DNA of 37,103 bases, from positions 1 through 37,103 of the forward strand of contig JAPHSS010000038.1 of assembly GCA_026195255.1 (NCBI GenBank), written 5' to 3'. The DNA is from Gammaproteobacteria bacterium (lineage in GTDB: Bacteria; Pseudomonadota; Gammaproteobacteria; SZUA-229). The notes under the pieces were generated by a model, which saw only the letters and a program-made list of their open reading frames with translations, was not told the DNA's origin and ran no database searches. Made by a program: the position numbers and the translations under genes. Within the stretch, counting starts at the first letter, position 1. Every line of letters begins with the position of its first letter. Shown one piece after another: positions 7,101-20,385 of the stretch.

Positions 7101-7132
7101 TATGCATTCCCACGCAGGAGCGTGGGAACGAG
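7101..7132 (+). repeat. Palindromic dispersed repeat, copy 1
   Basis: A TATGCATTCCCACGC arm, a short spacer and GCGTGGGAACGAG form an imperfect palindrome. Closely similar copies lie at 20089-20120 (reverse) and 20353-20385 (forward). This sequence type is familiar as a widespread intergenic repeat in proteobacteria. Confidence 0.85.
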
Positions 7133-7275: not shown

Positions 7276-7683
7276 TCAACTCATAATACGCGGCCAGCGA
7301 TCATGCACCGCATCTTCCATTATCGGTGTTATGGTCACCACATAAATTCGTCGCTCTTTTCCATTATGAGCAAGCAAGCCCTGTATCCATTGCCCTTTAG
7401 GTAATTCAAACCAGTGACTATTTGATTCCATGTCTTTTTCCATGAACTGGGAGACAATTATTTTAACCGGTTTGGGAAACCACTTATCCCATACACCCTG
7501 TTTTATGGAGTCATGCCGTGCCCAGCCCCCCATTGGCAAGTTGCCCAGTTGCTGCTTGCGACGCCCCCAGGGTAAGTAGTCAATTTCAGCATTTTTCAAT
7601 CGCACAGGCAGATGCGCCTGCGGATTAGGAAAATAGACCCGTTTTTTCTCACCCTGATAAATATATTCAACGCCACCACACAT
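7276..7683 (-). CDS. Compact SRAP (YedK/HMCES-like) abasic-site-binding protein
   Basis: A 135-residue protein that aligns by eye with the SRAP domain although the usual length is about 220. All four SRAP active-site positions have candidates: Cys2 (MCGG, exposed after Met removal), Asn20 (YFPNPQ), Glu82 (FMEKD, where YedK has WFEW) and His127 (VHDRWP, where YedK has IHDRRP). The strands between them follow YedK order, and the chain stops just after the His motif. SRAP proteins form a thiazolidine DNA-protein crosslink with abasic sites in single-stranded DNA; that role is inferred here. It follows the Y-family polymerase and lexA on the same strand, which supports an SOS function. The gene is bracketed by near-identical 40-base direct repeats. 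Confidence 0.75.
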   Translation of the reverse strand: MCGGVEYIYQGEKKRVYFPNPQAHLPVRLKNAEIDYLPWGRRKQQLGNLPMGGWARHDSIKQGVWDKWFPKPVKIIVSQFMEKDMESNSHWFELPKGQWIQGLLAHNGKERRIYVVTITPIMEDAVHDRWPRIMS

Positions 7684-7922
7684 AATTTACATCTTTAAAA
7701 ATTTGAATTGACCATAAAGATCTTTGGGCACATCTCCCTCGGGGAAAGACCGCCGCTGTTTGGCGCTCTGTCCCCTGTTTTGATGCCATCAAGAGATTTA
7801 CGGAGTGGTTCATCGCTCTGCCAATCAGATCGGTATCACAACAGGGGACGGAGCTCAAAAAACGAGGTCCATCCCCGAGCAAAGCAATCAAACGATGACA
7901 CAGACAACTGATAACCATAATC
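7684..7922. repeat. Repeat copies A and B between polymerase and SRAP genes
   Basis: Copy A (7728-7779, reverse orientation) contains GGGGAAAGACCGCC and GGCGCTCTGTCCCC; it matches 20435-20498. Copy B (7840-7879, forward) matches copy C at 7188. GTCCCCTGTT at 7770-7779 and AACAGGGGAC at 7840-7849 are exact inverted arms, so the region could fold into a long hairpin between the two genes. Confidence 0.8.
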
Positions 7923-9173
7923 TTAAATCGACTGCCTGTGACCAGATGGTTTCCATGAGGGTGCAATTACATTAGGCATTTCCGATTTATTTATCAGGCG
8001 TCCCGGTCCTAACGTACACTCACCGTATCGCCTGTTAATTTCATCCATCACACCATCTATTTTCATTCTATTTTCATTAATTTTTGATTCATCAAATAAA
8101 TCCATCTGAGCATTTTCCCGCCCTGGATTTAATGCGGTTATTTGCACCTGAGATATCGGTTGATTACTCCAGTATTCATTCAGTACAAACTGACACAAAC
8201 GAATTAATAACTGGGTATCATTTGTTGGGTATGCTGATTTTACTTTTCGCCCTACCCAGCTGTTATTTGTATGTAAACCAATAAAAAACTCTGACGCTTC
8301 AAAATGATAACGTCTTAAACGTGCACTCACTCTCACCGCCATATGAATTAAATAGGTTAACAACAGATCTTTGTCCAGAGTATTTGGCGGTAAGACTTTT
8401 CCGTGACCTATAGATTTAGGATCAGCCACGTCTGGATGTAATGCTTCAGGGTCTTCACCCTGTGCCATATACCAGATACGCCGCCCGGGATTGCCAAAAC
8501 GGCGCGCTAACTCACCGATAGGCAGCTTTTTCATATCACCGCACAGGAAGACCCCTCTTTCGGCTAAAAAGCGCCCTACGCCTTTTGCAATACCGCACAA
8601 CTCGGTAACGGGAACATCCAGTAACTGTTGTCGAGATTCCCAGGGAGGTATAATCGTAAAGCCATCTGGTTTATTTAATTTAGCGGCATATTTAGCGGTT
8701 GTTTTATCTCCACTGATTCCAATAGAACAATGTAAACCCGATGCGTTATAAACCGCTTTTTTTAATAATTGACCAATGCGCCCGGGTGAACCGTGTAATT
8801 TCTGGCAGCGCGTCATATCAATAAACGCTTCATCAACTGAAAATATTTCCATATCCGGGCAAATATTACTAATTGCCTGCATGATTTCACCTGAAGTTTG
8901 CGCGTAAACATGAGGCCGAGATGGCCTTTGAATTAAATCTGCATATAACTTGCGAGCTTCTTTCAATCGCATACCGGTTTTAATACCGTATGCTCTCGCT
9001 TCATACGAACTGGTAATAATACAGGTTCCCTGATTACCGTTAGTAACCGCAACCGGACGACCCCGTAACTCTGGAAAATCACGTGCTTCAACCGCGGCAA
9101 AAAAACAGTTCATATCAACCAGAGCAATAGCACGTTGCCAGTGAACAGGGCAGATTTTGTTAAAGTCATGCAT
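7923..9173 (-). CDS. Y-family translesion DNA polymerase (DinB-like)
   Basis: A 416-residue Y-family polymerase. Catalytic carboxylates are Asp20 in ALVDMNCFFAAVE and Asp114-Glu115 in IFSVDEAF. Fingers and palm motifs (SSYEARAYGIKTGM, SIGISGDKTTAKYAAKLNKPDG) are intact, and a little-finger domain follows from about residue 245. A beta-clamp-binding motif QMDLF lies at about 356-360, before a 55-residue tail, so processive recruitment to the replication clamp is likely. Sequence is closer to DinB than to UmuC, but the SIGHGKVLPPNT segment and the long tail set it apart from E. coli DinB. It lies 80 bases downstream of lexA and upstream of the SRAP gene, fitting an SOS operon. Confidence 0.9.
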   Translation of the reverse strand: MHDFNKICPVHWQRAIALVDMNCFFAAVEARDFPELRGRPVAVTNGNQGTCIITSSYEARAYGIKTGMRLKEARKLYADLIQRPSRPHVYAQTSGEIMQAISNICPDMEIFSVDEAFIDMTRCQKLHGSPGRIGQLLKKAVYNASGLHCSIGISGDKTTAKYAAKLNKPDGFTIIPPWESRQQLLDVPVTELCGIAKGVGRFLAERGVFLCGDMKKLPIGELARRFGNPGRRIWYMAQGEDPEALHPDVADPKSIGHGKVLPPNTLDKDLLLTYLIHMAVRVSARLRRYHFEASEFFIGLHTNNSWVGRKVKSAYPTNDTQLLIRLCQFVLNEYWSNQPISQVQITALNPGRENAQMDLFDESKINENRMKIDGVMDEINRRYGECTLGPGRLINKSEMPNVIAPSWKPSGHRQSI

Positions 9174-9253
9174 GATAAAACCTTTAACGAATTAGATAAT
9201 TAAACACTCGCTTTCCCCGAGCATGACAAACATATGTAAGAAATATTTCTAAA

Positions 9254-9850
9254 TTAGTAAGTACGCAGCGTTCCCACCAGAACACCCTGAATCTGTACTC
9301 TATCTGCCGGATAAATCATTGGTTCCATACCTGAGTTTGCAGGAATAAGTTTGATGCGCCCATGCGATAACGGACGATAAATTTTTAAGGTAACTTCATA
9401 ATTATCAATCAATGCCACCACAACAGAATCTTTAGAGGCCGTATTACACGATTCAATAACCACCGTATCACCATCTAAAATACCCAGTTCAACCATCGAC
9501 TCACCATCTACCTTAAGTGCATAACGATTATCTCCCCCAAACATCTGGTTTAGGTTAATACCGTCATGACCTGCGATTGCCTCAATCGGCTGGCCTGCTG
9601 CAATTTTTCCTAACAGGGGAATCGACATAAGCTGCTCCATGTCATCGTCTGGTAAACGTAAACTCCGATGGGAGCCTTCTTCATTAAGCAAGTAGCCCTT
9701 TTCTAATAACGCTTTAACATATCGATGTGCCGTGCCCTGCGACTGTATGCCTATGCCTTCGGCAATTTCCGGGTAAGTGGGTGCATGGCCATTTCTTAAA
9801 ATATAAGCCTGTATATAATCAAGGGTGCGCTGCTGGCTATGGGTTAGCAT
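9254..9850 (-). CDS. lexA: LexA SOS repressor
   Basis: A 198-residue repressor-protease. Residues 1-65 form the winged helix-turn-helix; residues 75-198 are the S24 domain. The autocleavage bond is Ala85-Gly86 in GKIAAGQPIEA, nucleophile Ser118 in DGESMVELG and Lys156 in VTLKIYRP, all at the positions expected from E. coli LexA. The recognition helix (SQGTAHRYVKALLEKG) differs strongly from the E. coli SPNAAEEHLKAL type, so a non-canonical operator is expected. No CTGT-N8-ACAG box is present upstream, but nested inverted repeats are (see 9854-9891). It heads the lexA-polymerase-SRAP cassette and probably represses it. Confidence 0.95.
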   Translation of the reverse strand: MLTHSQQRTLDYIQAYILRNGHAPTYPEIAEGIGIQSQGTAHRYVKALLEKGYLLNEEGSHRSLRLPDDDMEQLMSIPLLGKIAAGQPIEAIAGHDGINLNQMFGGDNRYALKVDGESMVELGILDGDTVVIESCNTASKDSVVVALIDNYEVTLKIYRPLSHGRIKLIPANSGMEPMIYPADRVQIQGVLVGTLRTY

Positions 9851-19401: not shown

Positions 19402-19687
19402 AAATAAACACACATAATTAATAGGGTTTGAATTATAGGCAGACCTCATGACAAACCATAATTCAGCATAAAATATTACTATTTACATCAACAAATCACC
19501 ATGTAATTTATCATTTAAATTTTCATAAGTTATAGAATTTAAATGACTTATCCCGTTAATCTGATTTTTTTTATAGGCCTATAAAAAATACTTAAGCTGA
19601 CTATAATTAAAGTGCGGTTTAAAAATGACGTATCAACCTCCCCGTATCTGTCTCAAAGACACATATAACCTACAGGAGATCTAAATT

Positions 19688-20029
19688 ATGATGTTAAGTG
19701 TAGCCGGCCGAAATATTGAAACCAATGAACAGGGGTTCATAGCAAACCTTAGTGAATGGAATGAAGAGTTTACCGAAGTGGTAGCAAAAAATGATGGCGT
19801 AGATTTATATAACGATCATTGGGAGCTGATTCTTTATTTCAGAGATTATTTTGATGAAAACCAGGTAAGCCCAACTATGCACAAGGTAGTTCGTGAACTG
19901 GGCTCAAAAAACAAACATTTCCATAATCAGAAAGAATATGAAAAACATATTTATAAGCTGTTTCCAACCGGTCCAGCACATGAGGTATGCAAACTTGCTG
20001 GCTTGCCTATGCCTCAACCTGATGATTGA
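19688..20029 (+). CDS. DsrC/TusE-family protein lacking the penultimate cysteine
   Basis: A 113-residue DsrC-fold protein (family core: GFIANLSEWNEEFTEVVAK, DHWELILYFRDYF, PTMHKVVRELG, LFPTGPAHEVCKLAGLP). DsrC proper has two redox cysteines ten residues apart near the C-terminus: CysB and the penultimate CysA. Here CysB is Cys101, but the residue at CysA's place is Asp112, and there is no other cysteine. TusE keeps CysA, so this is neither canonical DsrC nor TusE; it resembles the regulatory DsrC-like branch (RspA-type, as I recall it). AGGAG lies nine bases before the ATG. It is opposite in strand to its neighbours and ends in a strong terminator. Confidence 0.88.
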   Translation: MMLSVAGRNIETNEQGFIANLSEWNEEFTEVVAKNDGVDLYNDHWELILYFRDYFDENQVSPTMHKVVRELGSKNKHFHNQKEYEKHIYKLFPTGPAHEVCKLAGLPMPQPDD

Positions 20030-20053
20030 TAAAGTAGTATTGTTATAGTTAAT

Positions 20054-20083
20054 AAAAAAGCACCCAGGACGGGTGCTTTTTTA
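20054..20083 (+). terminator. Rho-independent terminator of the DsrC-like gene
   Basis: Arms AAAAAGCACCC and GGGTGCTTTTTT with a 5-base loop lie 24 bases past the stop codon, with a T tract. Confidence 0.9.
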
Positions 20084-20088
20084 TTATC

Positions 20089-20385
20089 TCGTTCCCATGC
20101 TCCTGCGTGGGAATGCATAGCTCACCAGGTAACACACACCGCAACCCTCGTCACTCCTATCACCAGTACCTAACACCATGAAGAATTGACTTCATCGATG
20201 AAAATAAAAATACATATGTACTGCGACACTGGTCGACGTAGCTCAGCAACTTCATATTTATCAAATGAACGGGGGTTCACTAGTTGTATTCCAAAGGATA
20301 GAATAAATTCTGTACCTGAAAACGTGCGGAGTGTGGACTAGTACATCGAAACCTATGCATTCCCACGCGGGAGCATGGGAACGAG
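20089..20385. repeat. Segment bounded by two inverted copies of the palindromic repeat
   Basis: A copy of the 7101-7132 element at 20089-20120 (reverse) and one at 20353-20385 (forward) bracket 232 bases of non-coding DNA. The arms match each other well, so the whole could fold into a large hairpin or be a small non-autonomous element. No reading frame or other feature is recognised in the interior. Confidence 0.7.

Follow-up and report, generated by a model that had tools for sequence, protein, structure and literature searches.

In DsrC proteins the sulfur-binding residue is CysA, a cysteine conserved in all of them, and a second cysteine, CysB, acts as its helper (PMC3397948). According to the accessible text of that study, the only site of persulfuration in DsrC of Allochromatium vinosum is Cys111 (CysA), sulfur binding does not depend on Cys100 (CysB), and the Cys111Ser exchange makes binding to DsrEFH far weaker. 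Homologues that depart from this pattern appear in the accessible parts of three further reports: the Solemya velum symbiont has DsrC-like proteins that lack the full cysteine pair and are encoded outside the dsr operon (PMC4287430), one of 141 viral DsrC sequences has the first cysteine motif only (PMC8190135), and SUP05 phages encode a viral DsrC without the second C-terminal cysteine (PMC4164917). In the Riftia symbiont, the available account gives several DsrC copies, four of which were detected as proteins (PMC7787665). The literature that we searched, in which subscription journals were thinly covered, held no description of a group with cysteine at the CysB position and aspartate at the CysA position. 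This Cys/Asp group is a new variant inside the known DsrC family.

We analysed a stretch of 37,103 nucleotides, referred to as the window, from a gammaproteobacterial genome (contig JAPHSS010000038.1). It contains a CysB-only gene of the DsrC family (Table 1), whose product ends in ...HEVCKLAGLPMPQPDD. Cys101 is the sole cysteine, and the eleven residues from it to Asp112 match the step from CysB to CysA in canonical DsrC; the initial annotation had described the same spacing and the same replacement of CysA by Asp, and an alignment of 171 DsrC domains, which lines up Cys101 with CysB and Asp112 with CysA, bears it out. The protein scores above the cut-offs of PF04358 (108.3 bits; cut-off 24.9) and TIGR03342 (103.8 bits; cut-off 53.5), and below that of the TusE equivalog NF008562 (84.5 bits; cut-off 191). 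An AlphaFold2 model (mean pLDDT 90.5) places its predicted fold closest to A. vinosum DsrC (1yx3; Z 16.9, rmsd 1.8 over 109 residues, 34% identity); the top eight PDB chains all belong to the DsrC family (Z 12.3–16.9), and the next match has a Z of 3.5. By sequence and predicted fold, the gene product belongs to the DsrC family. It has Cys at the CysB position, and Asp112 where canonical DsrC has CysA, its cysteine at the penultimate residue. In TusE, the tRNA thiolation protein that shares superfamily TIGR03342 with it, the pattern is the opposite, with CysA present and CysB absent. RspA-type DsrC-like proteins, for which a regulatory role is supposed, are not known to have CysA or CysB, whereas the window group keeps CysB.

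Table 1. Features of the DsrC-like gene in the window.
Feature	Position	Strand	Detail
AGGAGA, likely ribosome-binding site	19674..19679	+	by eye from sequence
CysB-only DsrC-family gene	19688..20029	+	113 aa, ATG start; Cys101 / Asp112
Cys101 codon TGC (CysB position)	19988..19990	+	alignment column
Asp112 codon GAT (CysA position)	20021..20023	+	alignment column
Intrinsic-terminator-like hairpin closing the single-gene unit	20050..20086	+	16-pair stem, GCACCC/GGGTGC core, T run

Folding 51 bases around the terminator-like hairpin gave −22.6 kcal/mol (z −6.8 versus shuffles); a simple terminator scan listed nothing at this place. A promoter scan of the window found two candidates against 4.3 expected, so we claim no promoter, and an Rfam search of the window gave no match.

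Orthologues were sought with a profile built from 12 of them. At E 1e-35 or better it matched 13 of 369 genomes in a sample of the class and 19 of 54 in the family, rising to 20 of 54 in the family at 1e-34; because the two sets have three genomes in common, 30 genomes have a match in total. Across a phylum sample, the gene group was found in the window's own genome only (1/349). Orthologue matches reached at least 124 bits, the lowest being a fragment, compared with at most 108.5 for the top-scoring canonical DsrC of each of ten genomes that were searched with a loose threshold. All 27 distinct full orthologues in the alignment, one per genome, have the Cys/Asp pair, as does a partial 28th copy (L222 in G016; DNA translated by eye). 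In L090 (G033), Cys stands at CysB and the contig ends just after it, before position 112. In the sister sequence L074, from G071, the two cysteines are replaced by Ser and Leu, so that the 29 copies readable at position 112 comprise 28 Asp, one Leu and no Cys. The nearest further relative, L191 (G045), is Cys/Glu; its genome gave no match at the strict threshold of E 1e-35 in the class sample.

Both codons vary synonymously among the seven orthologues whose codons we compared (TGC/TGT and GAT/GAC, with GAC at the Asp112 codon in L054). In seven of the 21 pairs of these orthologues, dN/dS was 0.03–0.10, a rough figure because most of the seven have dS above 1; the remaining 14 pairs were saturated for synonymous change. 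Canonical DsrC of the same genus gave 0.03–0.07 in six pairs. The Cys/Asp gene is real, conserved and under purifying selection. A patchy distribution is what an artefact or decaying copy might show, and with 27 distinct sequences from separate genomes and dN/dS well below 1 we give this explanation practically no weight. The two escape routes named in the initial annotation are likewise closed: close homologues with Cys at 112 are absent from the 29 readable copies, and a sequencing error (or a pseudogene) is ruled out by the same residues in 27 distinct orthologues together with the low dN/dS.

The initial annotation also doubted that such a protein carries persulfide in the normal way, and the A. 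vinosum data on sulfur binding at CysA only, in the accessible text of PMC3397948, agree: by homology, the window protein would be expected neither to accept nor to hand on sulfur in the usual manner. Cys101 might instead have replaced CysA in an alternative sulfur carrier. The window protein has no other cysteine, and all 27 Cys/Asp rows conserve this one; A. vinosum DsrC, however, is described in the same text as losing sulfur binding when CysA is mutated and CysB is still present, and we regard such a carrier as quite improbable. The role of the window protein is probably to tune sulfur metabolism and not to carry sulfur, and a regulatory or binding role, judged from sequence, is plausible. 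Our leading though still tentative reading is that it is a conserved, stand-alone DsrC paralogue of reverse-Dsr sulfur oxidisers that is not a carrier but a partner or regulator of the machinery for Dsr sulfur transfer, with Cys101 as a thiol. On this reading, the cysteine that holds sulfur was lost and the other one retained. The protein would carry no sulfur on its arm, unlike DsrC, and may dock on a putative Dsr partner through the DsrC fold, with Cys101 acting as a redox- or persulfide-responsive thiol and possibly as a switch.

We compared the group with 60 canonical DsrC rows, counting a position as conserved if identical in at least 25 of 27 group rows and at least 90% of the canonical ones. 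Twenty-one positions are conserved identically in both sets, including C101 and, in the arm, K102, G105, L106, P107 and P109, and 15 are conserved but different: Q15, Y50, F51, T63, M64, H65, H79, Y84, E85, H87, I88, D95, E99, P111 and D112. At position 95, the window protein has Gly, as opposed to Asp in the Cys/Asp group. The group resembles A. vinosum DsrC in fold, in CysB followed by the K-x-[AS]-G-L-P-x-P arm, and in belonging to dsrA-bearing genomes. It differs in having Asp for CysA, a 3–4 residue insertion before the LFP motif, a gene located away from dsrA, its own conserved residues (Y50, T63-M64-H65, H79, Y84-E85, H87 and E99) and a neutral to acidic arm where that of DsrC is basic. 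Mean charge over the last 14 residues is −0.4 in the 27 Cys/Asp rows, compared with +2.0 in 12 canonical DsrC rows. As a separate observation, the conserved His65, His79 and His87 form a conceivable metal site.

This signature bears on the idea of a decoy or plug of DsrAB, which would dock like DsrC with the Asp112 carboxylate in the place of the CysA persulfide or sulfite and so inhibit or gate the enzyme. The retained arm (C-K-L-[AS]-G-L-P-x-P), the Asp at the CysA position in 27 of 27 rows and the presence of dsrA in all class-sample carriers speak for it, but docking on DsrAB may have been lost, given the shifted charge of the tip and the 14 positions, not counting 112, at which the group conserves another residue than DsrC does. 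We consider a decoy improbable.

We built a tree from 121 of the 171 domains, thinning the canonical rows to one in four and leaving out partial rows and all viral rows but one. One supported cluster (99/92) takes in the Cys/Asp rows, L074 and L191, and all but one of the 27 Cys/Asp rows share a branch with 98/92 support. The deep forks of this DsrC tree, based on 112 columns only, lack resolution. When the C-terminal arm was removed, the Cys/Asp rows needed two changes and formed one clade in 1% of 200 bootstrap trees; they are therefore not established as a clade free of L074 and L191. On the same tree the CysB-only state needs at least four changes.

In the class sample, dsrA scores over the cut-off in every one of the 13 carriers, against 112 of the 369 genomes overall. 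The association is strong by the hypergeometric test (1e-7), and remains so (about 2e-5) with nine families each counted once, related genomes not being independent; dsrA was sought in the class sample, which holds 13 of the 30 carriers. In these 13, either the gene and dsrA are on different contigs or at least 32 kb separates them. A conserved group with CysB and without CysA, confined in the class sample to dsrA-bearing genomes, indicates a second job for CysB or for the arm. If so, annotations of these proteins as sulfur relay proteins would be misleading, and a natural single-cysteine variant would be a clean tool to separate carriage from binding or signalling. Patchiness counts against the reading of a non-carrier partner or regulator: 99 of the 112 dsrA genomes of the class gave no match at E 1e-35, and 34 of the 54 family genomes, many of them incomplete, none at 1e-34. 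The departures of L074 and L191 from the Cys/Asp pair, and the poor support for a Cys/Asp clade once the arm is removed, count against it as well. The Cys/Asp gene is kept in two 1.1-Mb genomes (G075 and G177), and it seems dispensable in three others of 1.0–1.1 Mb and 94–97% completeness (G321, G384 and G289), where there was no match to the group and the best matches were canonical DsrC. A two-pattern scan found no viral carriers; tblastn returned 15 plasmid and 2 phage records, all below 60% identity, and the annotated matches among those listed read TusE.

In the window, the gene sits between holB and tmk, divergent from holB, on contig C35, whereas dsrA is on C47; it is thus outside the dsr region near dsrA, where canonical DsrC is encoded. 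Compared with 28 other contexts, no neighbour was common to all genera, and no operon partner was found. Gene order is shared within a genus or little beyond it: g1 and g6 have the gene between holB and tmk, g11 and g13 have next to it a gene of 126–131 aa and one that by eye is recA-like, and g12 has a third arrangement. A few two-member clusters of open reading frames between other loci looked incidental. Stand-alone genes at scattered loci would suit a DNA-binding transcriptional regulator whose helix-turn-helix part binds DNA and whose Cys101 senses sulfane sulfur, and residues ~38–103 are weakly fold-similar to LexA and other helix-turn-helix domains (Z ~3). Against this, a Z of ~3 is at noise level and the fold is common to the whole family, the protein is acidic (net −8, pI 5.1; residues 38–103 net −1), and an upstream alignment of five orthologues revealed no operator that we could recognise as conserved. 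We hold such a regulator to be unlikely, and keep to the non-carrier partner or regulator of the Dsr machinery as the preferred reading.

The 3.56-Mb genome from which the window comes gave 13 PF04358 hits, corresponding to 11 loci because a two-domain protein on C56 and a split copy on C14 give two hits each. Among them is the canonical dsrC that the initial annotation had proposed to look for: L001 (...QACKYAGLPKPTGCV), with two cysteines, lies on C47 about 2.3 kb from dsrA. The genome has three CysB-only domains: the window gene, L006 (C39) and L048 (C47). The two-domain protein (L002:1072-1824; G000:C56:21199-21912) is a frame of 251 aa with two DsrC domains in tandem: the first has no C-terminal cysteines, and the second has an acidic tail and, of the two cysteines, CysA only. 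The split copy (L050:5125-5436 onward; G000:C14:7678-7991) is DsrC-like, lies in two reading frames and is apparently broken. A further DsrC-like gene, without either cysteine and ending RKGGY, occurs at 16 loci (L042:13294-13623, L107, L109, L110, L115, L116, L159, L166, L169, L177, L180, L189, L204, L206, L207 and L209), of which 15 lie ~2.0–3.3 kb from dsrA on the opposite strand and one (L180) on another contig. We considered L191 and L192 as fusions that could name a partner (Rosetta stone) and rejected them: Pfam gives a DsrC domain only, and the additional residues at their N-termini appear to come from open frame that precedes the start.

Retention of CysB alone, which the initial annotation called unusual, proved to be frequent among paralogues in the dsr-bearing genomes examined, and the word is too strong. 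The state occurs in 45 of the 121 tree domains (44 across four paralogue groups, plus L191), a figure that is no census because sampling centred on carriers of the Cys/Asp gene. Besides the window group, three CysB-only groups stand apart on the tree, ending GYGQ...AGM..LD (8 rows), ...RAWSTG (4) and ...GFGSV (5), the first two being sisters (100/96). Like the window group, they keep CysB, lack CysA and occur in the same class and partly in the same genomes; unlike it, they form separate clades and have different arms. Recurrence of the state in three further groups, with at least four changes, suggests a use for CysB without CysA. A bolder and rather unlikely extension would make CysB-only DsrC a functional class of thiol switches of its own that evolved more than once, with the invariant Asp of the window group gating sulfur flow by mimicking the bound substrate in an anion pocket, either in DsrAB or in a transferase.

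The GYGQ group (L216, L217, L223-L251) is the more widespread CysB-only set and ends GYGQQACKIAGMRKPxKxxLD. By score, with membership set by eye at 134 bits or more and a match reaching position 113, it occurs in 29 of the 369 class genomes, 27 of which have dsrA over the cut-off. Of the 29 loci listed for it, 24 were read at the C-terminus: 23 have Cys at the CysB position and one (L240) has Ser. Two pairs of 1.0–1.1-Mb genomes, each pair from one genus, divide the two genes between them: G075 has the Cys/Asp gene and G321 the GYGQ gene, and in the second pair the same holds for G177 and G384, respectively. Mutual exclusion as a general rule was rejected, since among the 112 dsrA genomes both genes occur in 4, compared with 3.1 expected (Fisher p 0.51).

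Elsewhere in the window, positions 7276-9850 (−) hold lexA (9254-9850), then a gene for a Y-family polymerase (7923-9173) and then an open reading frame (7276-7683) that has no Pfam match and that we take, by eye, to be like SRAP/YedK proteins. A 26-base near-palindrome, GTTCCCANGCTCNNGCGTGGGAATGC, occurs at 20091-20116 (+), 20357-20382 (−) and 7104-7129 (−), and has 47 copies in the genome against none for the reversed control. Its copies often form inverted pairs ~150–300 bases apart, one of them just downstream of the DsrC-like gene, and the repeat resembles a short mobile or REP-like element scattered over the genome.
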